The notes under the pieces were generated by a model. It searched no databases. It saw nothing but the letters and a program-made list of their open reading frames with translations, and had not been told where the DNA came from. Shown here piece by piece: positions 11,676-43,430 of a DNA stretch of 46,456 nucleotides. How positions within the stretch are numbered: position 1 is the first letter of the stretch; each line of letters opens with the position of its first letter. This DNA is from Flavobacteriaceae bacterium (GTDB taxonomy: Bacteria; Bacteroidota; Bacteroidia; Flavobacteriales; Flavobacteriaceae), in assembly GCA_013373635.1 (NCBI GenBank), contig JABXHN010000057.1, positions 1 to 46,456 on the forward strand, given 5' to 3'. The position numbers and the translations under genes are program-made.

Positions 11676-11780
11676 TACTTTAGATATTTCATTAATTGGT
11701 TTAAAATTATCACAAAATACTATTATGTATTTTTAACACAATAATGTATATTGTAACTTTAAAATATACAACCAGCAAAC

Positions 11781-13496: not shown

Positions 13497-13502
13497 GACA
13501 CT

Positions 13503-18364: not shown

Positions 18365-18368
18365 TGTA

Positions 18369-19712: not shown

Positions 19713-19744
19713 TCTTTAATTTTTGAAAATAAAGGTTTTAGGAA

Positions 19745-19773
19745 AAAAGGAGAAACCATAAGTTTCTCCTTTT
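19745..19773 (-). terminator. Terminator-like hairpin inside the PUL
   Basis: Perfect 12-bp arms AAAAGGAGAAAC (19745-19756) and GTTTCTCCTTTT (19762-19773) flank a 5-base loop. On the minus strand it is followed by a short T-run. It lies between the LamG gene and the first GH144 gene. Partial read-through would give more SusCD than enzyme mRNA; alternatively it protects the 3' end after processing. Confidence 0.7.
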
Positions 19774-19810
19774 AAACAAAAAAACTAAACTAAAATTTTA
19801 ACCTTTATGA

Positions 19811-21535: not shown

Positions 21536-21551
21536 GGTCTTTATGGTTTAA

Positions 21552-23075: not shown

Positions 23076-23093
23076 TTTGTTTTCGTTTTAAGA

Positions 23094-26084
23094 TTAAAAT
23101 TTGAGGTTTACTCCCAATGTAAATACTGCAGGTATTGGATAGGTTTGATTGTCAATACCACTAGCAACCTCTGGGTTAAATCCATTGTAATTAAACATGG
23201 TTAAAGGACGATCTGCAGTCAATGTCAATCTCGTTTGTGGGAAATTGTTTGGCTTTAAAGTATAGCCTAACTGCACGTTTTGAACTCTGAAGAATGAACC
23301 GTCTTCTACGAAGAAATTACTCATCTTTTGATTCCATCCTCTTCTAAGTCCTGATGAAGAAGGATACGTATTTGAGGTTCCTGCTCCGTGCCATCTGTTG
23401 ACTGCTAAATCAGCATCGATATTGGTATCGTTCGTCCAAATATACTCTCCTCTTTTTCTGTTGAGAATTTTATTTCCAGATTGTCCCATCCAACTAATTG
23501 AAAGCGATAATTGATCGTATTGGAAATTCATATTACCTCCATAAGTAAAGTCTGGTAAATAAGATCCTAAATCAACTCGATCCTCACCGTCGATTACACC
23601 ATCGTTGTTTTGATCGACAAATTTTAAATCTCCAGGAACTAAGTTATTTGCAACAGCAATTGGGTCTGCAGCAATTTCAGCTTCTGTTTGGTAAACTCCA
23701 GCTCTCTCCCATCCGTAGAACGCAAGGATAGAACCACCAACAGTAGTACGTTGTCTAAACTCAGCTTGACCACCGTTTAGGTAATCTTGACCGTAAAGAT
23801 CTAACACTTCATTTTTAAGAGTTCCAATATTAGCAGAAATCTCATAAGAGAAACGATCTGATACTTGATTAGACCAAGTAGTTGACAATTCAACACCAGA
23901 GTTTCTAATTGTTCCTACGTTTCTAAGAATGGATCCTCCAACTACTGGAAGCAATACGGGGATCACTGCATTATTGGTATCTCTGATAAAATAATCTGCA
24001 TCGATACTCAATTTGTTGTCAAACAATTTTGAAGTTAAACCAATATTGGTTTCTTCAACTACTTCCCATCCTAATGATGAAAAATTGTTAGTTGTAACTG
24101 TACCAGCTGTTAAGGTATCGTCAATCGCTGTATTGATAACAGAAGTCGTTGCAGCTCCATCTGAAGCAGCTACTTTATCATTACCTAATTGACCCCAGCT
24201 AGCGCGTAACTTTAAGTAGTTTACGATATCATTTTTAAAGAAATCCTCTTCTGATACGATCCAACCAAGTGATAAAGTTGGGAAATAACCCCATTTTTCT
24301 TGGTATTTTGAAGATCCATCAGCTCTCATTGTTCCATAGAACATATACTTGTCTTTATAAGAGTACTGTACTCTTGAAAAATAAGAAAGTCCATATTGTA
24401 CATATCCTCCATCTCCTACAGCCTCTGAAGGAACTGTCGCTGCTTGATCGATATACCATGATTTTTCATCGTCATATGGAAAATTCAATCCTTGAGCACC
24501 AAGAGATTGTCCACGCTCGTTTCTATAAGCAGAACCAACCATTAAGGTGTAACGGTGATCTTTAACTTGATCTTGATAAGTCAAGACGTTATCGATGATT
24601 TGATTTGAAAAAGTGCTAAAGCTTTTAGAAATACTAGCATCTACTCTTTGAAAACCATTACTTAAATAGAAAGGTAATCGAGTATATCTTCCGTAGTTAT
24701 CTCCATAGGAATGGTAATAAGTCGTTTTAAAGTCTAACTTATTTGGAATTAGCTCTACTTGTGCATATAGATTAGACACGGTTTGTTTCCCTTGAATTCT
24801 GTTATCGCTATAACGCATAGCAGGGAATGGGTTTTGACCTCCTCTATAACCTAAGGTACGCGCTGAGGCAAAATTGTCAGGCCATGCTCCTTCTGTATTG
24901 TCCTCGTTGTAAATAGGAAGAATAGGAACTGCCGTATAAGCCGATTTCCAAGCACCGTATTCTGGAGCAAATTTCTCGGTATTGGTTGTGATAAAATTAG
25001 CACCCACTTTTAACCAATCATTCGCCTGAAAATCAACTCTAGCTCTAAAGTTAATTTTAGTGTATTCATTTTTCATATCGAGAATACCCTCTTGAGCTAA
25101 ATAATTTCCTCCCATCGAATAGGTTGCCTTATTAGATCCTCCTGAAATATTAATCGAATGATTTTGAATTGCAGCTGGTCTCATAATTTCCTTATACCAG
25201 TTGGTGTTCACATCTGGAATATTTGGATTCACACGACTACGACCAAAAAGCTGCATTGCATTTAAGAGGTATTCAATATCAGGAGTAGATCCCGATTCCA
25301 ATACCATTGTTGTAAACTGCTCAGCATTTGCCATCTTCAAAACGTTCTGTGCTAGCTGAGTACCATAGTAACCATCGTAAACCACTTGAGTTTCTTGATT
25401 TGCCTTACCTGATTTTGTTTCAATTAAAATTACACCATTCGCAGCTCGAACTCCATAAATGGCAGCTGATGACGCATCTTTTAAAACAGATACAGAATCG
25501 ATATCAGATGGGTTTAAGAAATCGATATTGTTAAAGAACATTCCATCCACCACATATAATGGTGTTGAATTTCCTCCAACAGGATAAGAACCCACACCTC
25601 TCACTCGAATTGTTGGAGCTTCACCAGGAGCACCGCTAGATACAACTTGAAGTCCAGCTACTTTTCCCTGCAAAGCTTGCATTACTTGAGAAGATGGTGT
25701 TTTTTGGATCTCTTCTGATCCAACGGTACTAATAGATGATGTTAAATCCTTAACCTTCATTGTACCGTATCCAACAACAACTACTTCTGATAGATTAGTC
25801 GTATTGGTTTTCATTGTTACCTCTAAAGTGTCTGATTCAACAACAATAGATTGTGACTCAAATCCGATAGAAGAAAAGATAAGCGTATCACCTACACTTG
25901 CTTCAATTGTAAAGTTTCCATCAAAATCTGAAAATGCCCCTCTTTCAGTACCCTCTACTACAATACTCACACCTGGCAAACTCAAGCCATCATCTGAACT
26001 GATGATATGACCAGAAATGCTCTGTGCGAAAACAGTAGCAATACCCAAAAGAAACATTGTAATAAATAAATAGTTTGTTTTCAT
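23094..26084 (-). CDS. susC: SusC/RagA family TonB-dependent outer-membrane receptor
   Basis: The start is ATG 26084 (MKTNYLFITMFLLG). The longer frame upstream would begin inside the promoter. The signal peptide ends at FAQ (residue 20). A carboxypeptidase-D regulatory-like domain follows (about 22-100: SGHIISSDDGLSLPGVSIVVEG, DFDGNFTI). A TonB-box-like VVVVGYGT (about 102-109) precedes the plug domain (LQGKVAGLQV, IRVRGVGS, PLYVVDGM, SVLKDASSAAIYGVRAANGVI). The rest is the 22-strand barrel, ending in FTLGVNLKF. The length of 996 residues is typical. It imports oligosaccharides with SusD at the expense of TonB energy. It is first in the operon susC-susD-lamG. Confidence 0.95.
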   Translation of the reverse strand: MKTNYLFITMFLLGIATVFAQSISGHIISSDDGLSLPGVSIVVEGTERGAFSDFDGNFTIEASVGDTLIFSSIGFESQSIVVESDTLEVTMKTNTTNLSEVVVVGYGTMKVKDLTSSISTVGSEEIQKTPSSQVMQALQGKVAGLQVVSSGAPGEAPTIRVRGVGSYPVGGNSTPLYVVDGMFFNNIDFLNPSDIDSVSVLKDASSAAIYGVRAANGVILIETKSGKANQETQVVYDGYYGTQLAQNVLKMANAEQFTTMVLESGSTPDIEYLLNAMQLFGRSRVNPNIPDVNTNWYKEIMRPAAIQNHSINISGGSNKATYSMGGNYLAQEGILDMKNEYTKINFRARVDFQANDWLKVGANFITTNTEKFAPEYGAWKSAYTAVPILPIYNEDNTEGAWPDNFASARTLGYRGGQNPFPAMRYSDNRIQGKQTVSNLYAQVELIPNKLDFKTTYYHSYGDNYGRYTRLPFYLSNGFQRVDASISKSFSTFSNQIIDNVLTYQDQVKDHRYTLMVGSAYRNERGQSLGAQGLNFPYDDEKSWYIDQAATVPSEAVGDGGYVQYGLSYFSRVQYSYKDKYMFYGTMRADGSSKYQEKWGYFPTLSLGWIVSEEDFFKNDIVNYLKLRASWGQLGNDKVAASDGAATTSVINTAIDDTLTAGTVTTNNFSSLGWEVVEETNIGLTSKLFDNKLSIDADYFIRDTNNAVIPVLLPVVGGSILRNVGTIRNSGVELSTTWSNQVSDRFSYEISANIGTLKNEVLDLYGQDYLNGGQAEFRQRTTVGGSILAFYGWERAGVYQTEAEIAADPIAVANNLVPGDLKFVDQNNDGVIDGEDRVDLGSYLPDFTYGGNMNFQYDQLSLSISWMGQSGNKILNRKRGEYIWTNDTNIDADLAVNRWHGAGTSNTYPSSSGLRRGWNQKMSNFFVEDGSFFRVQNVQLGYTLKPNNFPQTRLTLTADRPLTMFNYNGFNPEVASGIDNQTYPIPAVFTLGVNLKF

Positions 26085-26110: not shown

Positions 26111-26140
26111 CAAATGTATATAACTGACCTAGGAAACAAA
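26111..26140 (-). promoter_or_regulatory. Promoter of the susC operon
   Basis: Read on the minus strand, TTTG (26140-26137) and TACATTTG (26118-26111) are separated by 18 bases, a good Bacteroidota -33/-7 pair. The predicted transcript start leaves a leader of about 20 bases before ATG 26084. Confidence 0.7.
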
Positions 26141-26157: not shown

Positions 26158-26168
26158 CGCTACGTCAT
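26158..26168 (-). promoter_or_regulatory. ATGAMGTAG box just upstream of the susC promoter
   Basis: Minus-strand ATGACGTAGCG ends 18 bases before the -33 element. It matches the 11-bp box found in the other accessory-operon promoters. Two turns further downstream, ATTACGTTTGT (26146-26136) shares the ACGT core and overlaps the -33 element. The location fits an activator site. Confidence 0.5.
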
Positions 26169-26248
26169 AAATCAATTAGTTATATCTATTTGATTTTTAA
26201 TTACTTAAAAATAAGTTTAGATGAATGCAGAATTACAGAAAAACACAA

Positions 26249-26281
26249 ATGACGTACTAATGAAGTAGGAATAAAGTAGTA
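26249..26281 (+). promoter_or_regulatory. Three tandem 11-bp boxes between the regulator gene and susC
   Basis: ATGACGTACTA, ATGAAGTAGGA and ATAAAGTAGTA follow each other without gaps, so the period is one helical turn. The block ends 3 bp short of the regulator stop codon and lies about 165 bp upstream of the susC ATG. Read towards susC, it contains AGTACTAC and TACTTCAT, shared with the elements at 32760 and 32875. Confidence 0.6.
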
Positions 26282-26283
26282 CT

Positions 26284-29070
26284 TTAAAGCGTCTTAATAA
26301 ATTCGAAGATATTCTCCTCTTTTAGATCGAGCTTCTTTTTCAATCGAAAGCGATGTGTTTCAACTCCTCGAACGGTGATGTTCATAAGAGGAGCTATTTC
26401 TTTGTTGGAAAAATTCATTTTAATATAGGCACAAAGCTTTAAATCTTTAGGGGTAAGCTTATTGTTTATCTGTGCTAATTTCTTAAAGAACTCTTCGTGA
26501 ACTTGGTTGAAGTTTCTCTCAAATAGCGCCCACTGATCCTTATCTTCAATCTCTTTATTGATTTGTCGAATCACTTTCTTTAACCAATACTCATTGTTGA
26601 TGTACTCTCTGTTGTGAAGCAACTCATTTCTGAGATTCTGAAAAGCCTCATTTTTCTTTCCCAGTTCCATCGCTGAATCAGCGAGTCGTTTACTCTTCAA
26701 TTTAAGCTCACTTTTAAGAGCATTTGCCTTGAGTTCCAAAAGCTTTTGCTGTGCTTCAATTTCTTTCTCTTCAAGGAGTAATTTTTGTTTACGATCAAAA
26801 TCAGCTTTGATTTGAGCCTCTTTTCGCTTGAGTTTTCTTCTTTGATAAAGGTAGATTAGTCCAACAATCAATAAACCAATCAATGTGAATATAAAATAAC
26901 CCAAGGTGGTCGCATACCAAGGAGGTAATACCTCAAAATTAAATTGTGAAGTTTCTGAATAATTTAAATTAGAGTTCACAACTCTGTATTCGAGATTGTA
27001 ATTGCGTTCTTTGAGGTTTTCTAAAAACAGTTTATTAGTCGCTAAACTTTTCCACGAGTCCTCATGATGGAGCCTATACTGGTATTGATAGGCTTCGTTC
27101 TTAGGTGCTGTGAAATAAATTTCAATGGAATTGTTTCTATGGGGCAATTCTACTTCAAAATCGAGTGGGACTGTTTCTTGGTCCACAATAATTTTAGCTA
27201 CACGCGCAGCTTGTAGCTTTAAGTCTTTTTCAAAGGTGTTTACATAAGAAAACCCATCGACAATATTGATAATCGTCTTGGAATTAACCTTGGTCAACAA
27301 CTCTTTACCAATGAGAATTTTTTTGTGAATGATTGGATTTACAACGGAGACAGAAGCCGTATCTAAGATGTGTTCCTTAATAAAAATACCATTATTGTTT
27401 TTAATTCCCACTTGAGTTCCACTGGTCTCACTAAAGAGTATGGAACTATTAGGACCTATGGAATTGTTTAAGAGATCATCTTCTACCAACTCATCTAAAA
27501 CTGCATCGTATTTCATCCAACCCGAATTCGTCTTAAAACGAATCCCTCCATTAACATTGACAATCTTTACGTTGTATTCAGAGCTTAAGCCTTTATTTTT
27601 GAAATTGATCATCTGATCAAATGATCCATCCTCATTTAATTTAAATCGATAGAGTCCTTTATAAGCATGAGCTGCCCAAATAACATAAGGAGTCTCGAAT
27701 TCTACATATCGAAAAGGCATTGTAGTTTTACTTAAACGAGTAGAAATCCATCTCCCTTTTACTTTTTTGAGATGAGCTAAACCTATATAAGATCCAATCA
27801 CATATTCATTGGGTCTATTTGGAAACGCCTTAAGAGTCCAACCTCCTGCAAAATCAGAAATTCGTTCAAAACTTTTTTCAGACACCAAAAAGGTTCCAGA
27901 ATTATGACCACATATCAGCTCTCCATCTATCACTTTTAAAAACCAAACTTGTCCCTGTGATCCTTCTACAAAATGAAGCGTGTCATTTTGAACGAAATAG
28001 AGTCCAGTATTGGAACCTAGAAATAATTTACCTTGGTACTCGGTAACAGCGTAAACGACGCCCAATTGACCTGTCTTATCTGTGAAATAGCTTGGTTGAT
28101 CGAGAAAAACCTTGGAAAGCCCATTGTCTAATGCTATCCAAAGTGTTTTATTATCAAAGGTTGAGTGATTGAGAACCGTATTGTTATCCAGACTGTTTTC
28201 TCTGTTAAAATGATAGAGAACAGATCCTTGATTAGAAGCTACATACAAACCGTTTTTAATAGTTCCAAATACCATTCTACCGTCGTCCAGAACACTAAAA
28301 CTATTGAGTAAATCTTCCTTGATACGATCGTTGATTTCAGATTTAAACTCTTGAAGCCCCTCCTCTTTATTATACACAAAACAACCATTTAAGGAAGTTG
28401 TAATAAAAAGATTTGCTCCTTTTTTAGAAACGGATATAATATTTGATTCGTGAAGAATTTTATGGTCTACAACAGGAACGACAATATCATTACGGAGCAT
28501 AAAAACTCCATTAGATTTTGTAGACAAATACAATTGATCCTCTACTACATTAATGGCTATAAGTAATGAGGGCAATTCAATAACACTTAATTGTTGATCT
28601 TTAAGCCTAAAGAGACGACCAAAAGACTGAAAGAAGACCTCATCACCAATTGATTTTATCTTCCAGATTTCTTGATCTTTGATTTGATCGAGTTCTAAAG
28701 AATTCTTTAAAGAAGTGTATTTTAAATCTCCGTAGATATCCCATTGCCAATACCCAAATTCTTCATAAGACCCTGTAAATATCTTATCTCCAAGAGCTAG
28801 AACTGAACGAATTACCGTTTTATTTGGAAGCTGGTATAAGTTCCAAACTAAACCATCAAATCTCAAAAGTCCCATGGTATTTGCCACATACACTGAACCA
28901 TCATCAGCACGAGTGACTCCCCAGTTTTGATTGGAAGCTCCAATGGCATTTAATTCATAATTTTCAACTGGGAGTTGGAATTGTGAATAGGCCTTGATGG
29001 TAACTGCAAAAAACAACAATACACCAATGATTGTTGTTTTTATATTTTTTATGTTCCTTACACTTACCAT
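26284..29070 (-). CDS. One-component PUL regulator: propeller, Y_Y_Y domain, LuxR-type HTH
   Basis: The start is ATG 29070 (MVSVRNIKN); the longer TTG-initiated frame starts within the -7 box. Signal or anchor segment at about 8-27, then a sensor beta-propeller (about 30-600, e.g. NTMGLLRFDGLVWNLYQLP near the start). A triple-tyrosine (Y_Y_Y) domain lies at about 635-705 (EIYFTAPKNEAYQYQYRLH), a transmembrane helix at about 720-743, a coiled coil at about 750-820, and a LuxR/GerE-type HTH at 872-928 (LTPKDLKLCAY, FSNKEIAPLMNITVRGVETHR). It lacks the histidine kinase and receiver of hybrid two-component PUL sensors, so signal passes straight from periplasm to DNA. It lies upstream of, and in the same direction as, the susC operon. 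It probably senses glucan fragments and activates the PUL. Confidence 0.88.
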   Translation of the reverse strand: MVSVRNIKNIKTTIIGVLLFFAVTIKAYSQFQLPVENYELNAIGASNQNWGVTRADDGSVYVANTMGLLRFDGLVWNLYQLPNKTVIRSVLALGDKIFTGSYEEFGYWQWDIYGDLKYTSLKNSLELDQIKDQEIWKIKSIGDEVFFQSFGRLFRLKDQQLSVIELPSLLIAINVVEDQLYLSTKSNGVFMLRNDIVVPVVDHKILHESNIISVSKKGANLFITTSLNGCFVYNKEEGLQEFKSEINDRIKEDLLNSFSVLDDGRMVFGTIKNGLYVASNQGSVLYHFNRENSLDNNTVLNHSTFDNKTLWIALDNGLSKVFLDQPSYFTDKTGQLGVVYAVTEYQGKLFLGSNTGLYFVQNDTLHFVEGSQGQVWFLKVIDGELICGHNSGTFLVSEKSFERISDFAGGWTLKAFPNRPNEYVIGSYIGLAHLKKVKGRWISTRLSKTTMPFRYVEFETPYVIWAAHAYKGLYRFKLNEDGSFDQMINFKNKGLSSEYNVKIVNVNGGIRFKTNSGWMKYDAVLDELVEDDLLNNSIGPNSSILFSETSGTQVGIKNNNGIFIKEHILDTASVSVVNPIIHKKILIGKELLTKVNSKTIINIVDGFSYVNTFEKDLKLQAARVAKIIVDQETVPLDFEVELPHRNNSIEIYFTAPKNEAYQYQYRLHHEDSWKSLATNKLFLENLKERNYNLEYRVVNSNLNYSETSQFNFEVLPPWYATTLGYFIFTLIGLLIVGLIYLYQRRKLKRKEAQIKADFDRKQKLLLEEKEIEAQQKLLELKANALKSELKLKSKRLADSAMELGKKNEAFQNLRNELLHNREYINNEYWLKKVIRQINKEIEDKDQWALFERNFNQVHEEFFKKLAQINNKLTPKDLKLCAYIKMNFSNKEIAPLMNITVRGVETHRFRLKKKLDLKEENIFEFIKTL

Positions 29071-29088
29071 CTTCAATAAAATATGACA

Positions 29089-29096
29089 CAAAGATA
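29089..29096 (-). promoter_or_regulatory. -7 box of the regulator gene
   Basis: Minus-strand TATCTTTG matches TAnnTTTG exactly and leaves about 18 bases to ATG 29070. No TTG is seen at the standard -33 distance, so the promoter may be weak or need an activator. Confidence 0.45.
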
Positions 29097-29152
29097 TTAG
29101 ATATTAGACATTTCTATAGGGCTATTGGGGACTTATTTCATTTAATTAGAAC

Positions 29153-30982
29153 CTATTTTATCATTTGAATTTCACTTCTTTCTGAAATTCCATTTTCATT
29201 AAAAGCTTCAATTGAAAAATAATAAGAGGTGTCTCGATCTAAACATCTCATAAAATGAGAATTGGTATCATAAAGAAGCCAAGATTGGTACAATTTATCA
29301 GGAGCTATTCCCCAACGAATATTATAGCCTTGAGCATCTTCAACAGCATCCCATGAAAAAGAAGCATCCCTGCGATCCGTTTGGCGATTTATTTCAAAGT
29401 TTGATACTGAATTCGGTTTCTCACCATAACCTAAACCAAAAACCCTAAGTTCAGACATCGCAAAATTTGCACCAGGAACTTTAATATTGTTATAGCGCAC
29501 ATATTTAGCATCGACAGGAGTGTCTAATTCAATATAGGCATTGGGTGTGTCTTTTTGACTTTTACTTCTATCGACTACTGTTTGCCAATGTGTTCCATCT
29601 TCAGATACCTCAATACTAAAACGATGCTTTAAGCCTTCTGTGCGTGTGTATATTCCTGACTCATAATCGTGAAAATTTAACTGAAAAGCGTATATTTTTC
29701 CTGATTGCTGCATTTCAATTTGAATCCATTGCTGGTCATCATTTGCCTGGGCAATCCAAAAAGACTTTGGGTTCTCATCTGTCAATACATTCGAAATAAT
29801 AGCCCCCTGATCATTTTTTTCAAGTGGTAATTCTGTTACTTTAACCTCATCATCATTCGATGTGAATTTAATAACTTGAGAAAGTGAAGATGAAACTAGA
29901 ACATTACCCTTATAGGAGAGTAGCATCCACCCATTGTGATGTCCAGATTTGGTAGGATGGTTAGATCCAAAACGAGGGTAATCTCCATAATCTGTATTGG
30001 TATACATCAGTCCCTCATCATCAAAATAAGTTGGGAACATGCAAAGACGACGCTCCCATTGTGAGTTTGAAGCTAAAGCCATTGTTGCAAAATGCCAATA
30101 TTGTCCATTGGTTTGTTTTACAGTAATTCCATGACCTGCACCATTTGTAAATCCTCCAGGTTTAAAACTCATTGGATTGCTTTTCATATAGGTAAATGGT
30201 CCTAGTGGCGAGTCTCCAATATAAACCCCATCTGCATACACGTTAAATTGCGTACCTGGAGCAGCGTATTGCAAATAATACTTTCCGTTGTGTTTAGTCA
30301 TGGAAGCTCCTTCCATATAGCCTTCCTTTAAAGTTGGATGAAAATTGTTTTCTCCAAATCGCTCCCAACCGTGTTCCTTTTCAACAAGATTAATCAAGTC
30401 TTTTCTAAGCCCTGTTTCTAAAAAACGATCCTCTCTATTGAGCATCTTTACACGAATAGGGTGAACGTTTGAAGATCCCCAGTACAAATAGGATTTCCCA
30501 TCATCATCGATGAATAATTCAGAATCTTGAATGTTATTTGAAATAGATGCTGTAGGTTTCCACAATCCACTTTTAGGATCATCAGTATAGAGTATGCTTC
30601 CATAACCAGCAGGGTCTCCAGCAAAATACACTAGAGAATCCTTGTAATTAAAGGCAGTAGGAGCATTACTTCCTTCGAAATACCACTGTTGTGGCTTAAT
30701 AAATTTCCAATGCACTAAATCTTTTGAATGCCAATAACCAAAAGATCGCGTAACGAACATATAGTACTCTCCTTTGAATTCAATGACGGCGGGATCGGCT
30801 CCTGAACGATACGAAATATTTCTGCTTGAATTGTAAACCATATAGCTATAATCAATGTCAATAGGATTGCAATAGGTTGTTCCCTGATAATCTGTATAAG
30901 TAATCGTATCATCGGATTCTTTTGTAGAACAGGATATGCTCATCATACCTATGACAAACAAAATAAATAGTTTGTTCTTCAT
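29153..30982 (-). CDS. GH43-like glycosidase with discoidin and fibronectin-III domains
   Basis: The start is ATG 30982 (MKNKLFILFVIG); the upstream TTG would overlap the sulfatase stop. Lipobox SISC (Cys18). The five-bladed propeller (about 35-345) keeps a GH43-like triad: Asp63 in GADPAVI as base, Asp153 in QDSELFID, and Glu224 in YMEGASM as acid. An F5/8 type C (discoidin) domain at about 400-515 ends in YVRYNNIKVPG. A fibronectin-III domain (about 525-610) follows. The bound sugar is not predictable; family members act on arabinans, xylans or galactans. It is co-transcribed with the sulfatase (1 bp gap), so a sulfated side chain or oligosaccharide is a reasonable guess. Confidence 0.78.
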   Translation of the reverse strand: MKNKLFILFVIGMMSISCSTKESDDTITYTDYQGTTYCNPIDIDYSYMVYNSSRNISYRSGADPAVIEFKGEYYMFVTRSFGYWHSKDLVHWKFIKPQQWYFEGSNAPTAFNYKDSLVYFAGDPAGYGSILYTDDPKSGLWKPTASISNNIQDSELFIDDDGKSYLYWGSSNVHPIRVKMLNREDRFLETGLRKDLINLVEKEHGWERFGENNFHPTLKEGYMEGASMTKHNGKYYLQYAAPGTQFNVYADGVYIGDSPLGPFTYMKSNPMSFKPGGFTNGAGHGITVKQTNGQYWHFATMALASNSQWERRLCMFPTYFDDEGLMYTNTDYGDYPRFGSNHPTKSGHHNGWMLLSYKGNVLVSSSLSQVIKFTSNDDEVKVTELPLEKNDQGAIISNVLTDENPKSFWIAQANDDQQWIQIEMQQSGKIYAFQLNFHDYESGIYTRTEGLKHRFSIEVSEDGTHWQTVVDRSKSQKDTPNAYIELDTPVDAKYVRYNNIKVPGANFAMSELRVFGLGYGEKPNSVSNFEINRQTDRRDASFSWDAVEDAQGYNIRWGIAPDKLYQSWLLYDTNSHFMRCLDRDTSYYFSIEAFNENGISERSEIQMIK

Positions 30983-30983
30983 C

Positions 30984-32642
30984 TTAGCGTTCAATTAATT
31001 TATCGGATCTTCCTCTTAATTTTTCAAAGTTTTTATAGGCGCGATCTACTTTTTCTTTTGGAGTCTTCTTAAATTCATTATCAGTTACACCGTACTGAGC
31101 CTGCAATTCTTTTAATCGAGCATGTAGTTGTGATTGAACCTCAGCATACTGCTTGTCTCCGTAAAGATTGTTTGCCTCTGTAGGGTCCTTTTCTAAATCG
31201 TATAGCTCCCATTGATCATTGTCGTCGTAAAAATGCATCAATTTATAGCGATCCGTTCTCACGCCGTAATGACGTTTAACCATATGAAAGGCTGGAAAAT
31301 CGTAGTAGTGATAATAGATTGCATCTCTAAATACTCCTTCAGAATTATTTTCAACTAATGATTTGAGTGATTTTCCTTGAAAATCTTCAGGAATTGGAAC
31401 CCCTGCATAATCTAAAAAGGTAGGAGCAAAATCCAAGTTTTGAGTCATATCTTCAATCACGGTACCTGCTTTTATTCCTTTTGGGTATCTCATCACCATG
31501 GGCATTTCAAGAGAAGGCTCATACATAAAGCGCTTGTCAAACCATCCATTTTCTCCTAAATAAAAACCCTGATCAGTTGTGTAAATAACAATCGTATTCT
31601 CAGCTAATCCAGATTCGTCTAAATAGTCTAAAAGGGCTCCTACTCCATCATCAACAGCCCTAATGGTTGCTAAATAATCTTGCATATAGCGTTGAAACTT
31701 CCACTCAGCAAGTGCTTTACCACTGAGATTCGCCTTGTGAAAAGCGTTGTTCTTAGGTAAGTAAGCAGCATCCCAAATAGCTCTTTGCTCCTCATTCATT
31801 CTAGTAAAATCTCTAGTCCAAGGATTGTGTGCTAGTTCAGTAGATCCGTATTCCTTGCTCATACGAAGATCATGTCCCTCGTACATATCGTTGTAGATGG
31901 TTTGTAATTGATCTTCTGAAGCCTCTTGCTTTTCAAAATGACGATAATAGCTATCTGGTATCGGAAATTGAATTGAATCAAATAAATGAAGGTAACGAAG
32001 TGGTGGCATCCAGTTTCGGTGTGGTGCCTTGTGATGAACCATCATCATAATTGGTTTACCAGAATCTTTATTCTCCTTTAAGAAGTTAAGTGCCTTTTCT
32101 GTGATTATATCAGTGGCGTATCCTGTTTCGATAATCGTATCGTATTTCTTATCCTTAGAATTAGATTCGTGAATAAACTCAGGGTTGTAATAATTCCCCT
32201 GATCGTTTAAAATATCCCAAGAATCAAATCCCTGTGGAGCTCCTCCAATATGCCACTTTCCAAAAAGAGCGGTCGTATAGTTATTCTTCTGAAGCATTTT
32301 TGGAAAGGTACGCTGATTATTATCAAACTGTTCCCCATTCATCCTAAAACCATTGATATGAGAATGTAATCCTGTCAATACAACAGCTCTACTTGGTCCA
32401 CAAAGAGAATTTGTGCAATAGTTGCGTTTAAACAGTGCTCCTTCTCTAGCGATACGATCAATATTAGGAGTTGGAGCTAATTGGCTTACAGGGTGACCAT
32501 AGGCGCTAATGGCTTGCTGAGCGTGATCATCTGCCATGATATAAATAATATTTGGTGCTTGAGAGGCTTCTTGATCTTTATCGTTACATGAATAGACAAA
32601 GAATAAACTCATAAACAATCCAAAAGACAATAATTTCTTCAT
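30984..32642 (-). CDS. S1 family sulfatase lipoprotein
   Basis: Lipobox VYSC (Cys19). Sulfatase signature CGPSR with Cys81 as formylglycine precursor, then AVVLTGLHSHINGF. Metal-binding ADDH (38-40) and TTDQGFYLGENGWFDKR are present. It is a close paralogue of the sulfatase at 11781-13496, sharing QRYMQDYLATIRAVDDGVG-like and WELYDLEKDPTEANNLYG-like blocks. It resembles the S1_11 group (GlcNAc-6-sulfatase-like), though the true substrate in this organism is open. It is first in a two-gene operon with the GH43-like gene, downstream of the tandem box at 32760-32781. The FGE at 10605 is the only maturase seen in the window. Confidence 0.88.
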   Translation of the reverse strand: MKKLLSFGLFMSLFFVYSCNDKDQEASQAPNIIYIMADDHAQQAISAYGHPVSQLAPTPNIDRIAREGALFKRNYCTNSLCGPSRAVVLTGLHSHINGFRMNGEQFDNNQRTFPKMLQKNNYTTALFGKWHIGGAPQGFDSWDILNDQGNYYNPEFIHESNSKDKKYDTIIETGYATDIITEKALNFLKENKDSGKPIMMMVHHKAPHRNWMPPLRYLHLFDSIQFPIPDSYYRHFEKQEASEDQLQTIYNDMYEGHDLRMSKEYGSTELAHNPWTRDFTRMNEEQRAIWDAAYLPKNNAFHKANLSGKALAEWKFQRYMQDYLATIRAVDDGVGALLDYLDESGLAENTIVIYTTDQGFYLGENGWFDKRFMYEPSLEMPMVMRYPKGIKAGTVIEDMTQNLDFAPTFLDYAGVPIPEDFQGKSLKSLVENNSEGVFRDAIYYHYYDFPAFHMVKRHYGVRTDRYKLMHFYDDNDQWELYDLEKDPTEANNLYGDKQYAEVQSQLHARLKELQAQYGVTDNEFKKTPKEKVDRAYKNFEKLRGRSDKLIER

Positions 32643-32759
32643 TAAATTAATTTTAAGGGGTGACGTAGTTGTTTAGTTCAAGGACTTATATAAAAAATCC
32701 TTTATTAATAGTAGCTGCAAATTATAAATTAAAAAACCATATTTATAAAAATAGCTTAA

Positions 32760-32781
32760 ATGAAGTAGTTATGTAGTACTA
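32760..32781 (+). promoter_or_regulatory. Paired 11-bp boxes upstream of the sulfatase/GH43 operon
   Basis: ATGAAGTAGTT and ATGTAGTACTA adjoin, about 118 bp upstream of the sulfatase ATG. The second box contains the perfect palindrome TAGTACTA. The pair is nearly identical to that at 32875-32896, in the same relation to its own gene. Confidence 0.6.
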
Positions 32782-32874
32782 TATCATTTCTTTAAAATTA
32801 CATAAAATCAAACTTTTAAATGGATTCAAAGCAACTTTTGACTTTAGAGATTAGATTCATAAAACTGCTATATC

Positions 32875-32896
32875 TAGTACTACTTTAATACTTCAA
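32875..32896 (-). promoter_or_regulatory. Paired 11-bp boxes upstream of the DUF1080 operon
   Basis: Minus-strand TTGAAGTATTA (32896-32886) is followed by AAGTAGTACTA (32885-32875), again with TAGTACTA. The block ends 17 bases before the -33-like TTG of the DUF1080 promoter and 91 bp before the ATG. Confidence 0.6.
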
Positions 32897-32913
32897 CACA
32901 AATAATTATTTTA

Positions 32914-32939
32914 TTGCTGTACTTAAAATCTTATATTTA
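32914..32939 (+). promoter_or_regulatory. Probable promoter of the DUF1080 operon
   Basis: TTG (32914-32916) and TATATTTA (32932-32939, one mismatch to TAnnTTTG) are 15 bases apart. The ATG at 32987 lies 47 bases downstream. Confidence 0.35.
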
Positions 32940-32986
32940 GTAATTCAACAAAACAACTGCCTATTAACTTTACTATTGAACAACTA

Positions 32987-34357
32987 ATGAAACTCAAAAC
33001 CCTTAGCTTCCTGCTTTTATGGAGCATCCCCCTTTTAGGATTATCACAAGAATGGACTCCATTATTTAACGGCAAAAATTTTAACGGTTGGGAAAAACTA
33101 GGTGGAAATGCCACCTACCAAATTAATGGCAATACCATTACAGGTATTTCAAAAATGGGAACTCCTAATACCTTTTTAGCGACTAAAAAAACCTATGGTG
33201 ATTTTATACTCGAACTCGATCTCAAAGTAGATCAGGGATTGAATTCAGGAATACAAATAAGATCATTAAGCACTAAAGACTACAACAATTACAGAGTTCA
33301 CGGATATCAAGTTGAAATTGATCCCAGCCAGCGAAAGTGGTCTGGAGGACTCTACGATGAAGCTCGAAGAGGATGGCTCTACCCTCTTTCACTTAATCCA
33401 AAAGGAGCAGAAGCATTCAGACATGGAGAGTGGAATCACTATCGAATAGAAGCCATTGGAAACAACATTAAAGTATGGGTAAACGGAATACAAACAGCTC
33501 ATATTGTAGACGATATGACTGATGAAGGTTTTATCGCCTTACAAGTGCACTCCATACACGATGAATCACTCGATGGATTAACTGTATCTTGGAGGGATAT
33601 TAAAATTGCAACTAAGGATGTCTCTACCTATCAAATGAGTGATGACCCACAGGTTCCTCAGGTGAATTACCTAAAAAATCAATTGACCGATCTCGAAAAA
33701 AGAAAAGGTTGGAGATTGCTTTGGGATGGTAAGTCAACCGATGGATGGATCAGTGCTAAAGCCGATCATTTTCCTAAAATGGGTTGGGAAATCAAAGATG
33801 GTGTTCTTACGGTTCTCGAATCAGGAGGTGGTGAAGCCGAGCACGGAGGAGACATCGTTACCGTTGACAACTTCAGAAACTTTGAACTCTCCTTAGAATT
33901 TAAAATTACCGAGGGTGCTAATTCAGGAATCAAATATTTTGTGGACCCAAGTCTAAATAAAGGCAAGGGATCTGCTATTGGACTCGAATATCAACTTCTC
34001 GACAATGAAAAGCATCCTGACGCTAAAATGGGAATTAAAGGTAATCGCACCCTAGGATCACTCTATGATTTAATTCCAGCCCACAACCTTTCAGAAGATA
34101 GTTCCTACTTGAGATTCAAAGGAGTCAATGAGTGGAATAGAGCCAGAATTAAAGTAGTTGATGGAGCTGTTGAACACTGGTTAAACGGAGTAAAGATTGT
34201 GGAATACAACCGTTTTACTCAAATTTTTGTAAGCCTAGTTAACTACAGCAAATACAAAGTATATCCTGGTTTTGGACAGGCTAATGAAGGTAAGATACTC
34301 CTTCAAGATCACGGAAATCAAGTATCTTTTAGATCAATCAAAATAAGAGAATTTTAA
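32987..34357 (+). CDS. Secreted double-domain DUF1080 protein (3-keto-disaccharide hydrolase family)
   Basis: A signal peptide (residues 1-21, GLSQ) is followed by two DUF1080/PF06439 jelly-roll domains, about 22-210 and 235-455. They share matching blocks: [15 protein letters not shown] versus [13 protein letters not shown], then [18 protein letters not shown] versus [18 protein letters not shown]. Members of this family cleave 3-keto-glycosides formed by a partner oxidoreductase, as in the B. thetaiotaomicron BT2156-BT2160 pathway. Most relatives I know have one domain, so the tandem form is unusual. The next two genes (1 bp and 9 bp gaps) are Tat-type Gfo/Idh/MocA oxidoreductases, which supports that role. 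Pathway assignment is inference from family and neighbours. Confidence 0.8.
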
Positions 34358-34358
34358 G

Positions 34359-35693
34359 ATGAGCAGAAGAACCTTTATCAAACAGACCGCTCTTGGAGCA
34401 ACTGCCTTAAGCATCGCTCCATCACTGATGAGTATGAGTAAAAGCAGTTACAATCGCATCCTTGGAGCAAATGATCGAATTCACATTGGATTTATTGGAC
34501 TCGGAAGACGTTATCCTGCCTATATTCCATCATTACTAAACAAGGACAACAATGTACATCTGTCTTATCTCTGTGATGTTATGCAATCACAAATCGATAA
34601 GCGCCAAGCAGAATTAAAAGAAAAGTTGGATTATATGCCAACAGCTACCGATGATATACGAACCGTTTTAGATGACAAAGAGGTTGATGCAATTTTTAAC
34701 GCTACTCCTGATCACTGGCATACTCCAGGAACGCTGATGGCTTTAGAGGCAGGTAAACACGTTTACGTTGAAAAACCTTGTTCTCATACTATGGAAGAGA
34801 ATGAGCTCATTGTTGCTGCTCAAAAAAAGCATGGAAAATTCGTTCAAATGGGGAACCAACAACGCTCATCGGACTACACCATTAAACTTGTGCAAGACAT
34901 TGCAGATGGTGCAATTGGTACGCCTTATAAAGCAGTTGCATTTTACAGAAATCAGAGAGGTCGCGTTCCTAATCAACAAGCTGCTCCTATTCCTGAGGGT
35001 TTAAACTGGGAACTCTTTCAAGGTCCTGCACCTAGAAGAGCCTATACCTCAGAAACCTGGGATTACAATTGGCATTGGTACGGTTGGGATTACGGAACTG
35101 CAGAAGCTGGAAATAACGCAACTCACGAATTGGATATCGCTCGTTGGGCACTAGGAGTTGAATTCCCTAAATCTGTTTCTATAGATGGTGGAAAACACCA
35201 TTTTATTGACGATGGATGGGAAATGTACGACACCATGGAGGCCAAATTTAAGTTTGAAAATAACAAGACCATCGTTTGGGATGGCAAGAGTCGAAACAAT
35301 TATGACACCTATGGTGGAGGAAGAGGAACTGTGATTTACGGTAGTGAAGGTTCTGCCTTTGTCAATCGATCCAGATGGGCCTTATTCGATCGCAATGGAA
35401 AACAAGTGAGCGGCGCTGATTCAGAGGCAAAAGAAACTGGAGTACAATTGGGTGGTGAGGGTGAAATGTCTACAGCCCATGTAGATAATTTCTTTAATAC
35501 CATTAGAGGTAAAGCAAGCTTAAATGCACCTATCGATGACGCAGCTGTTTCTATGGCCATGGTTCATTACATCAATTTAGCATATCGTGTTGGAGAAGAT
35601 TTCAACATCAATGCAGATGGTAGCATTGACCATAAAAAAGCTATGAAGCTATGGAGTAGAGATTACGAGAATGGCTGGAAACCAAAACTATAA
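34359..35693 (+). CDS. Tat-exported Gfo/Idh/MocA oxidoreductase (3-keto pathway candidate)
   Basis: Tat signal SRRTFIKQT at residues 2-10 with a hydrophobic core to residue 23. Rossmann motif GFIGLG (44-49), PDHWH (118-121 region) and EKP (138-140) mark the family. The C-terminal domain includes YNWHWYGWDYGTAEAGNNATHE, whose aromatic and His residues usually line the active site. The length of 444 is typical. With DUF1080 one gene upstream it probably oxidises C3 of a glycoside in the periplasm with a tightly bound nicotinamide cofactor. It is 1 bp after the DUF1080 stop. Confidence 0.82.
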   Translation: MSRRTFIKQTALGATALSIAPSLMSMSKSSYNRILGANDRIHIGFIGLGRRYPAYIPSLLNKDNNVHLSYLCDVMQSQIDKRQAELKEKLDYMPTATDDIRTVLDDKEVDAIFNATPDHWHTPGTLMALEAGKHVYVEKPCSHTMEENELIVAAQKKHGKFVQMGNQQRSSDYTIKLVQDIADGAIGTPYKAVAFYRNQRGRVPNQQAAPIPEGLNWELFQGPAPRRAYTSETWDYNWHWYGWDYGTAEAGNNATHELDIARWALGVEFPKSVSIDGGKHHFIDDGWEMYDTMEAKFKFENNKTIVWDGKSRNNYDTYGGGRGTVIYGSEGSAFVNRSRWALFDRNGKQVSGADSEAKETGVQLGGEGEMSTAHVDNFFNTIRGKASLNAPIDDAAVSMAMVHYINLAYRVGEDFNINADGSIDHKKAMKLWSRDYENGWKPKL

Positions 35694-35702
35694 TAGAGAA
35701 TA

Positions 35703-36905
35703 ATGAAACATATCAATCGAAAAGATTTTTTAAAAAAGACAGGAGTCGCTGCCACAGGAGCTCTTGTACTACCTCATCTGAGCTTTGCTAAATCCATCAA
35801 CCTCAACGCTACTGTAAGTGTTGGAGTCATTGGAACGGGAATAAGAGGCCAAGAGCTCACTAAACTCATCAACAACATCGATCAGATGCAGGTCATTGCT
35901 TGCTGTGATGTCTTAGATTTTAGATTAAAAGAAGGCGTTGAGGCTGTCGAAGGCAAAAAGCCAAAAGCCTATAGCGATTATAGAAAATTACTCGAAAACA
36001 AGGATGTAGATGCGGTGATCATTACCGCTCCACTTCATTTGCACTCTGAGATTGCCATCGCTGCTCTAGATGCTGGTAAGCACGTCTATTGCGAAAAGAC
36101 AATGGCCAAGGGAATTGAGGGAACTCAAAATCTCGTTAAAGCTGTTAGAAATTCCAATACAACTTTTCAAGTGGGACATCAATACCACCAATCGAGAATG
36201 TACGTCGCACTTAAACAAATGATCGATGAAGGCAAAATCGGAAAACTAGTTTCTCTTGAATCCCAGTGGAATAGAAATGGCAATTGGAGAAGACCGATCC
36301 CCTCTCCAGAATTTGAACGTCAAATCAACTGGAGAATGTATCGTGATTACTCTTACGGTCTTCTTGCTGAACTTAGCTCTCATCATATTGATTTCACCAA
36401 CTGGGCACTCGAAGACCATCCAGAAAAAGTGGTAGGAATGGGCGGTATTGACTACTGGAAGGACGGTAGAGAAACCTATGACAATATTCACTTAACTTAC
36501 GGCTATAAAAGTGGTTTTAAAGCCTCCTTTACTTGTTTAACTGCAAATGCATACGAAGGATACAGAATCATCATCAAAGGCGATCAAGGAAGCTTAATTG
36601 CCTATATGACCGAAGCCTTCTTTTATCCAGAAGGAAAAGAAGAAGAAAAAATCACTGGTACCGTGGACGGATACTCAGGAGCGACCATTGGTTGGACCAA
36701 GAATAAGGGAATTCCACTGAATCTTGACAATACGGATCCCACCATCCATTCCCTAAGAGATTTTAGAAATAATATTTGGGACCATAAATTACCGCTCTCC
36801 AATATTCACTCTGGAGCTCAAACAGCCTATGCAGTTGAAATGGGAATTCAAGCAATGGATTCAGGAAATACCATTCACTGGGATGACAATACAATGATCT
36901 ATTGA
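35703..36905 (+). CDS. Exported Gfo/Idh/MocA oxidoreductase, second copy
   Basis: The N terminus NRKDFLKKTGVAATGA is Tat-like but has RK in place of the twin arginine, so the route may be weak Tat or Sec. Rossmann motif GVIGTGIRG is at 41-49. The family EKP has changed to EKT (131-133), a shift seen in some branches. A catalytic-region block YGLLAELSSHHIDFTNWALED follows near 220. It is about 400 residues, shorter than its neighbour, and the two are only distantly alike, so they may act in sequence (C3 oxidation, then reduction or a different sugar). The gene ends at the stop of a convergent gene with no spacer. Confidence 0.8.
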   Translation: MKHINRKDFLKKTGVAATGALVLPHLSFAKSINLNATVSVGVIGTGIRGQELTKLINNIDQMQVIACCDVLDFRLKEGVEAVEGKKPKAYSDYRKLLENKDVDAVIITAPLHLHSEIAIAALDAGKHVYCEKTMAKGIEGTQNLVKAVRNSNTTFQVGHQYHQSRMYVALKQMIDEGKIGKLVSLESQWNRNGNWRRPIPSPEFERQINWRMYRDYSYGLLAELSSHHIDFTNWALEDHPEKVVGMGGIDYWKDGRETYDNIHLTYGYKSGFKASFTCLTANAYEGYRIIIKGDQGSLIAYMTEAFFYPEGKEEEKITGTVDGYSGATIGWTKNKGIPLNLDNTDPTIHSLRDFRNNIWDHKLPLSNIHSGAQTAYAVEMGIQAMDSGNTIHWDDNTMIY

Positions 36906-37739
36906 TTAAAACTTCAACTGAGCTATCAGTGGATAATGATCCGATGGATAACTAATTCCATAGGTTTCAATTAGGGTTAAAAAGCTTTTGACCCTAATCC
37001 CTTCACTGACAAAAATATAATCAATTCTTCGATCAGCATCTTTAGTGATATCAAATCCATTAAAGGTCTTATTGAAATTTGACTTGAGTTTTTGAGCCAC
37101 TAAAAGAGCGTCGCTAAGCTTTGATTGTAAATTTTTAATTGCTGTATGATCATCGTTTAAGTTAAGGTCTCCCTGTACGATATAGGGTTCCTCATGGATA
37201 TTTAATTCATTTACTTTTGAGAGAATTAAATCAATAGAATTGATACGTGCCTGCTCTCCTAGATGATCAAAATGCGTATTAAAAACCCAAAAGATTTTTC
37301 CTGATTGATCTTTTAATCGCACATAAGAACAGACTCTATTTAGAGCCGCATCCCATCCTTTTGAGGGGATGTTTGGAGTTTCAGAGAGCCAAAAGGTCCC
37401 ACCTTCCAATTTTTCAAAGAGATCTCTCTTGTAAAAAACAGCTGAATACTCGCCTTTGTGAGCTCCGTCATCTCGACCAACTCCTTCCATCTCAAAATTT
37501 GAAAAAGCTTTTTTTAAATCCTCAATTTGATTGGGCATTCCCTCTTGGATTCCAAATACTGATACTCCAGACGATTTAATTTGCTCAAAGATTTTAGATT
37601 TTCGAACAGACCATGGATCTGAGTTCTTAGCGGTATAATCCAAGCGAATATTATAGGTCATGATCTTGTGTTGAGCATTCATTTGAATACTAAAAACACA
37701 GAGCATTGTGATGAGAATTAGTTGTTTAATGAAGTTCAT
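36906..37739 (-). CDS. Secreted endonuclease/exonuclease/phosphatase (EEP) family protein
   Basis: Signal peptide residues 1-22 (NAQ). EEP-fold markers: KIMTYNIRLD near the start, VFGIQEGMPNQIEDL with the metal-binding glutamate, FWVFNTHFDHLGEQAR with the catalytic histidine, VQGDLNLNDDHTA with Asp/Asn, DRRIDYIFVS, and SDHYPLIAQLKF at the C terminus. The length of 277 is normal. In PULs such proteins are common and usually annotated as phosphodiesterases of unknown substrate, so the cut could be a phosphate ester on a glycan or nucleic acid. It overlaps the upstream esterase stop by one base (TAATG). Confidence 0.82.
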   Translation of the reverse strand: MNFIKQLILITMLCVFSIQMNAQHKIMTYNIRLDYTAKNSDPWSVRKSKIFEQIKSSGVSVFGIQEGMPNQIEDLKKAFSNFEMEGVGRDDGAHKGEYSAVFYKRDLFEKLEGGTFWLSETPNIPSKGWDAALNRVCSYVRLKDQSGKIFWVFNTHFDHLGEQARINSIDLILSKVNELNIHEEPYIVQGDLNLNDDHTAIKNLQSKLSDALLVAQKLKSNFNKTFNGFDITKDADRRIDYIFVSEGIRVKSFLTLIETYGISYPSDHYPLIAQLKF

Positions 37740-38614
37740 TATCTAGATATGGTTTTTGTAATATGTGTATCCTTTACGATTGTTGATTTAAAGAAATCAA
37801 AAACATCGGTTAAATCTCCAAATGGTATCCCTGAGATTTCATGACGGCCTTTCTCATAGGTATAAAAGAGATAGGATGTTCCTAAGAGGCTCAATCGATC
37901 CACAATCTTATCGGATCCATTGAGCACTAAATAACCTGCATCTTTAGGATTGCAATAATGATGTGCTGCTTTAGAATAAGGAACTAAATTATCTGCAATT
38001 CCGTGAAAGAGTACTGAAGGAACAGCTGTCTTAGAAGTGATTTCATCTAGGTTGACAAGAGCTCCAGCCAAAGAAAACACTCCAGCAAATGAAATCTGAT
38101 CATAGGCCCCATCTAAATAATACTTAGGCATATAAACAGCAGAGAGAATGGCCTCTGCTCCTGCTGAAGATCCTCCAGCGATTATTTTATCTGTATCAAT
38201 ATGTAAATCATCACTGTGATCTATTAAAAACGATACCGCATCCATATAATCAATAGCAGCTTGTTTGAAGGTTTCTTTCTTTTCAGCAGCTGGACAATCA
38301 CATCCAAAATAGGTTGCTGTTCCTTTTCGAAGTAAGCGATAGGAAATGGAGACAGCCACAAATCCTTGCTCAGCAGCAGTTTCACATAATTTTGTTTCAT
38401 TTTGATTATCCCTCACTCCTCCAGAGAATCCCCCTCCGTGCATCCATACAAGGGTTGGCAACTTTTCTGATTTAGAGCTAAATTCAGGTGAGTAGACGTC
38501 TAATTGTAATTCTTGACCATCCTTTGTAGCATAGGTATAGGTCTTCTTTTGTTGTGCTAAGAGCAGGGTACTAAAGCTAAATAAAAGCACCCCTACAGAT
38601 ATCTTTAATTTCAT
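37739..38614 (-). CDS. Secreted alpha/beta-hydrolase (carboxylesterase-like)
   Basis: The start is ATG 38614 (MKLKISVGVLLFSF); the TTG at 38659 would place coding sequence across the promoter. Signal peptide to about residue 20 (LLAQ). Oxyanion motif HGGGFSGG (59-66). Nucleophile Ser150 in AGGSSAGAEA. C-terminal HEISGIPFGD carries the likely catalytic His, and FHGIADNLVPYSKA the likely Asp. Four cysteines include CDCPAAE. The fold is that of BD-FAE/para-nitrobenzyl-esterase-like enzymes, perhaps removing acetyl or methyl groups from the glycan. It is first in a two-gene unit with the EEP protein. Confidence 0.8.
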   Translation of the reverse strand: MKLKISVGVLLFSFSTLLLAQQKKTYTYATKDGQELQLDVYSPEFSSKSEKLPTLVWMHGGGFSGGVRDNQNETKLCETAAEQGFVAVSISYRLLRKGTATYFGCDCPAAEKKETFKQAAIDYMDAVSFLIDHSDDLHIDTDKIIAGGSSAGAEAILSAVYMPKYYLDGAYDQISFAGVFSLAGALVNLDEITSKTAVPSVLFHGIADNLVPYSKAAHHYCNPKDAGYLVLNGSDKIVDRLSLLGTSYLFYTYEKGRHEISGIPFGDLTDVFDFFKSTIVKDTHITKTISR

Positions 38615-38628
38615 TTGTAAGTTTTTAA

Positions 38629-38660
38629 CTAAAGTAATCCTTTTAAGGGCTTCATTCAAA
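38629..38660 (-). promoter_or_regulatory. Probable promoter of the esterase/EEP operon
   Basis: Minus-strand TTTG (38660-38657) and TACTTTAG (38636-38629, one mismatch to TAnnTTTG) are 20 bases apart. ATG 38614 follows 14 bases after the -7 box. Confidence 0.4.
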
Positions 38661-38665
38661 TGAAT

Positions 38666-38687
38666 TCCTACGTCATTACTACGCTAA
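38666..38687 (-). promoter_or_regulatory. Paired 11-bp boxes upstream of the esterase/EEP operon
   Basis: Minus-strand TTAGCGTAGTA (38687-38677) adjoins ATGACGTAGGA (38676-38666), ending 5 bases before the -33 TTTG. It shares a long near-match with the element at 26249-26281. It overlaps the last codon and stop of the upstream beta-CASP gene. Confidence 0.55.
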
Positions 38688-42854: not shown

Positions 42855-43430
42855 TTAACTTATTCGAGTAAGGGTTTCTGGTCTCATATTGAGCATGGAT
42901 GCTAAATACTTTTTTGGAATGCGATCAAATAAGGTTGGAGGAGTTATTTTAATAAAAAACTCATAGCGATCCTTTGCATTTGGGATACGTGCTAAATAAG
43001 ATCTTATTTCAGAATTTGAATAGTATTGTTCGATCGTTTTTCTGTAAACAGTATTGATCTTTGGAAAATTTGCAATAGCGTAATTTAAATCCTCATAGTT
43101 AAAACACTCAAATTCACAGTGCTCTAAACACTGGATATTTTCAAGTGCTGGTGACTGTGAAAAGAATCCTTGAACAGAGGTAACCAATGAATTTTCAGCA
43201 CAAATCCAAGTTGTAATTTGCTTGTTGTCATGATCAAAATAGGCACGTACCAATCCCTGAGTTAAAAAGAAAAACTGATTACAAACTTCTCCAGACTTAA
43301 TAATTACATCACCTTTAGAAAATGATTTTCGAATCATTTTAGAAGTAACAAAATTTCTAGCCTCCTCACAAAGTTCGATTTGACTTCCTATTTGCTCTAA
43401 AAAATATACTTTATTTTTATATTCCTCCAT
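42855..43430 (-). CDS. Crp/Fnr family transcriptional regulator
   Basis: 191 residues: a cyclic-nucleotide-binding beta-roll at about 20-140 (MIRKSFSKGDVIIKSGE, FFFLTQGLVRAYFDH), a dimer helix, and a short HTH at about 160-191 that ends in the recognition helix (IPKKYLASMLNMRPETLTRIS). This compact end is normal for Bacteroidota members, and no strong cNMP signature (RxS) is visible, so the ligand is unknown. The gene is 11 bp upstream of CotH, in the same direction, so the two may be one unit. Confidence 0.85.
   Translation of the reverse strand: MEEYKNKVYFLEQIGSQIELCEEARNFVTSKMIRKSFSKGDVIIKSGEVCNQFFFLTQGLVRAYFDHDNKQITTWICAENSLVTSVQGFFSQSPALENIQCLEHCEFECFNYEDLNYAIANFPKINTVYRKTIEQYYSNSEIRSYLARIPNAKDRYEFFIKITPPTLFDRIPKKYLASMLNMRPETLTRIS

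Follow-up and report, generated by a model that had tools for sequence, protein, structure and literature searches.

Regulators of several kinds offer a point of comparison for the locus considered here. For the SusR-like regulators of Bacteroides, direct-repeat sites with a long spacer have been predicted, their centres 67 or 77 bp apart, and motif similarity tracks regulator similarity (PMC3878776); membrane-bound regulators of polysaccharide utilization loci (PULs) are concerned both there and here. Within the NarL/FixJ/LuxR (GerE) family, NarP requires an inverted 7-2-7 pair (PMC1802743) and phosphorylated DegU of Bacillus subtilis potentially uses direct repeats (PMC9263151); a LuxR gene has been noted as the first gene of many laminarin clusters (PMC13188888). 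In this study we examine a family of tandem boxes, and the regulator gene beside them, in a stretch of 46,456 nucleotides from a Flavobacteriaceae bacterium (NCBI GenBank assembly GCA_013373635.1, contig JABXHN010000057.1, positions 1 to 46,456 of the forward strand; the whole stretch is called the window). To judge from sequence, these boxes are very probably the operators of that adjacent, membrane-anchored and sugar-sensing regulator, because the same pair stands beside the same kind of regulator in dozens of related bacteria, with letters that differ by clade. No operator for this regulator family was described in the literature searched, in which coverage of subscription papers was poor.

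The core of the locus comprises the following features.

14810..26084, minus strand: target operon of susC, susD, a LamG protein, and glycoside hydrolases (GH) of families GH144, GH3 and GH144
26111..26140, minus strand: susC promoter candidate, TTTG (26137-26140), 18 bp, TACATTTG (26111-26118)
26161..26167, minus strand: susC proximal inverted box TGACGTA, 100 bp from the direct pair
26250..26278, minus strand: susC distal direct array in 11-bp steps, TACTTTA (weak, 26272-26278), TACTTCA (26261-26267) and TACGTCA (26250-26256)
26284..29091, minus strand: regulator with a signal peptide, a sensor of hybrid two-component system (HTCS) type, a transmembrane segment and a C-terminal NarL/LuxR-type helix-turn-helix (HTH); first ATG near 29070

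The probable susC start codon lies at 26082-26084, and the promoter candidate was judged against the Bacteroidota promoter consensus. Each of the two GH144 proteins resembles the endo-beta-1,2-glucanase 5gzh (matches at 2e-141 or better), and GH144 accompanies SusC/SusD in the core locus, as in a beta-1,2-glucan PUL; given these matches and the presence of GH3, the core PUL is predicted to serve beta-1,2-glucan. In the regulator, the signal peptide and transmembrane segment were read by eye in the translation, with a long periplasmic part between them. A sensor profile built from 17 sequences matches the solved HTCS sensors 3v9f (1.6e-41) and 4a2l (7.4e-34), as well as 3va6 and 3ott, and a profile of 35 HTHs matches EsrB (4.9e-06), FixJ (2e-04) and NarL (0.004). 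Pfam gave GerE at 22.2 bits, just below the curated cut-off of 23.5, and nothing else at E 0.001, hence no histidine kinase, receiver or AraC domain at that threshold. The profiles and the Pfam result together argue for a direct fusion of an HTCS-like sensor with a NarL/LuxR-type HTH. An AlphaFold model of the HTH region from the single sequence reached a confidence (pLDDT) of 48 and was kept out of fold searches. The same genome encodes a 26%-identical paralogue of the regulator (contig C32, 92028-94805), with no clear box pair after it.

Set against the described systems, the regulator shares with HTCS proteins of the BT4663 type a periplasmic sensor, a transmembrane segment and PUL linkage, but differs from them in its NarL/LuxR-type HTH and in giving no Pfam match to kinase, receiver or AraC domains at E 0.001. 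The HTH and its recognition helix align with those of EsrB, FixJ and NarL. The NarL heptamer is TACYYMT, which the 7-bp box described below, also starting with TAC, resembles. Unlike the inverted 7-2-7 site of NarP, which does not define all GerE members, the sites here are direct 11-bp pairs, with inverted sites about 100 bp apart from them. The tandem operators of MalT and OmpR/PhoB likewise consist of direct repeats placed side by side, in PhoB at a distance of one turn; the sensor here is unrelated to theirs, however, and PhoB binds through a winged helix. From the SusR-like systems the locus differs in its 11-bp tandem pairs, its inverted promoter site and a sensor that matches those of HTCS proteins.

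The boxes were first recognized, in a preliminary description of this DNA, as a family of 11-bp units (ATGAMGTAGKA), and every box listed there was found where it had been placed. Their tandem arrangement is far above chance, whereas the single 11-mer is unremarkable: with up to two mismatches it occurs 52 times in the window against 43 +/- 6.9 in shuffles, and with one mismatch 198 times genome-wide against 222 for the reversed control, so that neither search shows enrichment. The best unit is the 7-mer TACKTCA on the opposite strand, whose N4-spaced tandem gives the 11-bp steps. The susC array is the sole 0-mismatch match of TACKTCAN4TACKTCA in its own genome; with one mismatch there are five matches, two of them in promoters of the window. 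The box at 26158-26168, previously taken as single, is present but not solitary, being the inverted partner 100 bp from the tandem.

The strongest evidence that boxes and regulator belong together comes from homologous loci. A relative of the regulator at E <= 1e-100 occurs in 172 of 299 Flavobacteriaceae genomes, and wide stretches were taken around the 20 best. In all 20 the regulator directly precedes susC, and two TACGTCA-like boxes 11 bp apart (0-1 mismatch) lie 20-70 bp after its stop codon; the stretches examined also hold SusD (20/20), LamG (17/20) and GH144 (18/20). In six loci (L047, L051, L055-L058) SusC and SusD are just 24-33% identical to those of the window, with the boxes unchanged. 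The regulators fall into classes, of which class G includes that of the window, and the layout recurs within them. An inverted box (<=1 mismatch) is present in 24/24 class-G promoters including the window's, at +100-104 in 21 (the window at +100) and at +114/115 in the other three; a second, weaker inverted box usually follows 11 bp beyond the first. Class A has the inverted box in 30/36 promoters, 28 of them at +99-104. A TTTG-N18-20-TAnnTTTG-like promoter starts 8-9 bp past the second inverted position in 10 of the 24 class-G promoters, none being found there in the other 14; the susC promoter of the window (TTTG-18-TACATTTG) fits this class-G layout. A count of repeat lags that uses no motif found 11-bp repeats in 24/24 class-G and 27/36 class-A promoters, where shuffles yielded 3.0 and 4.1; class A shows an excess at lag 8 too (17 versus 3.9), and class C is weak at the 11-bp lag (10/24, with lags 16 and 31 reaching 12). 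Two loci, L088 and L094, were excluded from the inverted-box survey, the lag count and the matrix described below.

Class-G loci carry, in addition, a third TACGTCA exactly 66 bp from box 1 in 19 of 20 cases and at 68 bp in the remaining one, to be compared with the 67 or 77 bp of the SusR-like sites; the window showed no box 3. Among the promoters L043-L061 this distance is constant although the intervening DNA differs. In class A, CTACTGCA stands at exactly 54 bp in 9/36 loci.

An independent matrix points to the same places. Built over 22 bp from 23 promoters of class-G regulators 39-43% identical to that of the window, with the window sequence excluded, it ranks 26248, 38667, 32759 and 26259 highest in the window (23.6, 20.9, 19.8 and 16.6 bits). 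All four are intergenic, in a window of which only 11% is intergenic; the top score in 20 shuffles was 14.9 bits, and the fifth place, 15454 (14.7 bits), is coding. The sites are also conserved in G307, the sole close relative to emerge from 12 genomes of the genus, whose regulator is 93% identical. Of the box bases 115/119 are identical there, against 320/426 of the other intergenic bases; without the esterase boxes the figure is 97/101, which none of 5000 random block placements reached. Identity is 33/35 over 26249-26283 and 11/11 at the proximal inverted susC box. The boxes of the esterase/EEP operon are kept at 22/22 bases, yet the whole surrounding stretch is 94% identical, so they carry little weight as a footprint. 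The comparison of orthologous promoters proposed in the preliminary description thus finds the boxes kept in G307 and in 20/20 homologous loci.

Across whole genomes, the tandem concentrates beside this regulator family. Exact TACGTCAN4TACGTCA occurs 20 times in the 299 genomes, against 3 for the reversed control, and for 15 of the 20 a class-G regulator match ends no more than 80 bp away. A sixteenth (G253, locus L088) is flanked by a 26%-identical regulator on one side and, on the other, by a divergent gene for a protein with GH5, carbohydrate-binding module (CBM) and secretion-tail domains. Allowing one mismatch in the 24 class-G genomes gives 30 matches against 15 controls, and every one of the 24 has a match next to its regulator; one of the six left over (G134, locus L094) has a further family member on one side and a divergent susC on the other. 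For class A, 36 genomes picked for regulators already read were scanned with TACATCAN4TACATCA: 15 of 18 matches follow the regulator at no more than about 110 bp, one stands just before susC (G229) and two lie elsewhere (G120, G256). Here the reversed control is not independent, since ACTACATCA reads the same backwards, and its 8 matches may partly be the same sites.

The letters of the boxes also follow the recognition helix to a degree. With the helix written as R-G/S-V-E-x-y-R, a rule was fixed before 40 further loci were fetched: x = T gives TACGTCA, x = I/V with y = H gives TACATCA, and y = K gives [CT]ACAACA; in scoring, all helices with neither T nor K, including those with x = L or y = Q, were placed in the TACATCA class. 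The usable control was a set of 30 dinucleotide-block shuffles. The TACATCA class (n=22) yielded 14 loci that fit alone, 8 ties and no contradiction, where shuffles gave 3.6 alone and 9.2 contradictions; the K-type class (n=18) yielded 12, 3 and 3, where shuffles gave 5.7 alone and 4.2 contradictions. A reversed run (class A 13 alone, 8 ties, 1 against) is uninformative, the box being nearly the same backwards. Regulators with x = T numbered 0/40 in this set. A second set of 20 new loci came from an order-wide search, six duplicate loci being left out: in the TACATCA class (n=10) 8 fit, one is a three-way tie and one contradicts; in the K-type class (n=9) 5 fit, 3 tie and one contradicts; and the single T-type locus contradicts by score, while its first box, TACGACA, does carry the G. 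Loci L088 and L094 (both x = T) miss downstream of the regulator and have TACGTCA boxes on their divergent side. In the sensor tree they stand opposite class G. They are no blind test of the rule, because both were fetched for their motif matches.

Several results weigh against the operator reading or its extension to a family-wide code. The recognition classes are nearly clades, with three changes on the sensor tree, and because the co-variation rests on so few independent events we offer the helix-to-box code as a hypothesis. Loci L129, L133 and L135 contradict the K-type rule in the set of 40, and K-type fits are loose (median 3/14 mismatches versus 4.9 in shuffles); with shuffles reaching 5.7 fits and 4.2 contradictions, this class is only loosely defined. 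In the second set L159, L163 and L164 contradict and L156 is undecided. Four of the 20 exact tandem matches are not beside a regulator: those in G179 and G297 lie inside genes, and those in G023 and G162 are intergenic, with no family regulator in the stretch examined. In its own genome TACKTCAN4TACKTCA with up to two mismatches occurs 53 times against 79 for the reversed control; degenerate tandems thus show no genome-wide enrichment, and only low-mismatch matches are informative. A TTTG-N18-21-TA promoter stands at the expected place in only 10/24 class-G and 5/30 class-A promoters. Finally, the array before the DUF1080 operon is weak, ranking eighth with the matrix (5.0 bits) and not rising above shuffles.

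Three other explanations have to be weighed. The regulator might be a repressor that blocks the promoter until the sugar arrives, as the closeness of the proximal site to the -33 element would allow; we consider this improbable, given that in promoters where both can be placed the sites lie upstream of, and not over, the -33 and -7 elements. HTCS regulators, moreover, are activators. SusR, another membrane-bound regulator of PULs in this phylum, also activates (PMC3878776). Slightly less probable again is that the boxes serve a different transcription factor, with its gene elsewhere, and that the regulator is merely a conserved neighbour. Box conservation near susC would not by itself identify the binding protein, and other regulators are nearby, for example a protein with a cyclic nucleotide (cNMP)-binding domain at 42855-43430. 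Against this, the box letters vary with the regulator's clade and its helix, whole-genome tandem matches cluster beside the regulator family even in L088 and L094, with their divergent GH5 and susC loci, and Crp sites are palindromes of another kind. That the boxes are chance AT-rich repeats or a functionless repeat expansion is very improbable indeed: single boxes and two-mismatch tandems are as common as chance, but the independent matrix, whose result already contradicts chance, the footprint and the fixed spacing across many genera speak otherwise. Binding by the adjacent regulator is thus the reading we prefer, and the LuxR-type regulator, formerly named the best candidate from its location, gains support from the 20/20 linkage of gene and boxes, the genome-wide specificity and the clade- and helix-dependent letters.

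From the observed sites, their layout and conservation and the link to the regulator family, we infer the following course of binding, activation, ligand and loop. The probable ligand of the HTCS-like sensor in the periplasm is an oligosaccharide set free from a substrate resembling beta-1,2-glucan, and the cytoplasmic NarL/LuxR-type HTH would bind the TACKTCA heptamers. Two HTH domains would occupy one 11-bp direct pair, one helical turn apart; domains side by side on one face of the DNA are the simplest reading of the 11-bp repeats. A second, inverted site would be bound about 100 bp closer to the gene, just upstream of the -33 element, where binding would recruit or hold RNA polymerase and so switch on the PUL. 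The distal pair would help to hold this complex together, perhaps via a small loop; that the pairs face each other across about 100 bp suggests DNA looped or clamped by dimers bound to the membrane. In L151, from another family of the order, a compact array about 130 bp after the regulator stop, CACAACATTACCACAACATCATGTTGTGGTAATGTTGT, has its direct and inverted pairs nearly adjacent, and for this reason a long loop cannot be obligatory.

Boxes also precede three other operons of the window.

32661..32667, minus strand: lone TACGTCA upstream of the sulfatase start codon, oriented like the pair of that operon; 11/11 bases kept in G307
32761..32778, minus strand: direct pair TACTACA, TACTTCA of the sulfatase/GH43 operon; 22/22 bases kept in G307
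32878..32895, plus strand: pair TACTACT, TACTTCA of the DUF1080 operon, the weakest array; 20/22 bases kept in G307
38669..38686, plus strand: proximal-type pair TACGTCA, TACGCTA of the esterase/EEP operon, inverted relative to the gene

The lone TACGTCA is close to the sulfatase start codon, perhaps within the transcript. At 32875-32896 two boxes had been reported, and an array is present; its two best matches to ATGAMGTAGKA are 8 bp apart, however, not 11, and the 11-bp register is TACTACT-N4-TACTTCA. By hand reading, the esterase/EEP pair stands 8 bp before a TTTG-20-TACTTTAG promoter. The preliminary description had placed boxes before all four operons and had noticed none upstream of housekeeping genes. 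The sulfatase/GH43, DUF1080 and esterase/EEP operons are less secure than the susC operon as members of the regulon, because their boxes, present in the window and in G307, the sole loci compared, can be checked only in this one close relative, whose esterase region is 94% identical. Through these operons a second substrate may have been drawn into the regulon. Beyond the window, nine of the best sites of the same genome (five exact single boxes, one single box with one mismatch and three tandems with one mismatch, on contigs C32, C50, C25, C90, C2 and C34) all fall inside open frames of at least 100 amino acids, and hence add no member to the regulon. A second sulfatase and esterase group on the plus strand of the window (10605-14327) has no tandem array in the TACKTCAN4TACKTCA scan with up to two mismatches, and may therefore belong to a different regulon.

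The class-C loci seem to differ in the sugars that they serve. Among four inspected, three have a PKD-domain protein after SusC/SusD (one match being weak) and the fourth, L076, a GH16-PKD protein. In L080 (genome G047, contig C23, 4000-21000), one of these three, a class-C regulator lies between SusC/SusD and an alpha-amylase with a major facilitator superfamily (MFS) transporter; class C may therefore include starch-type regulators. In L077 (genome G097, contig C3, 279000-296000) relatives of the esterase, sulfatase, GH43 and EEP genes of the window adjoin a class-C regulator, and this suggests that the module has been exchanged between regulators. Within the stretch examined, its cut end aside, none of these relatives is preceded by a gap that contains a box array.

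Tentatively, and with somewhat less than even confidence, we extend these observations to one operator grammar for an entire family of membrane-held sugar sensors throughout the Flavobacteriaceae: a direct 11-bp pair, about 100 bp, and an inverted pair at the promoter, together with a code readable from the helix (E-x-y), in which x would set base 4 (T giving G; I, V or L giving A) and y base 5 (H, Q or N giving T; K or R giving A). If this is true, a single complex held at the membrane could use the facing pairs to clamp promoter DNA into a loop, and the regulons of such PULs could be drawn from sequence alone. The helix-to-box code is directly testable, and, with relatives of the regulator in 172 of the 299 Flavobacteriaceae genomes, a known operator would allow many polysaccharide regulons to be predicted from sequence.

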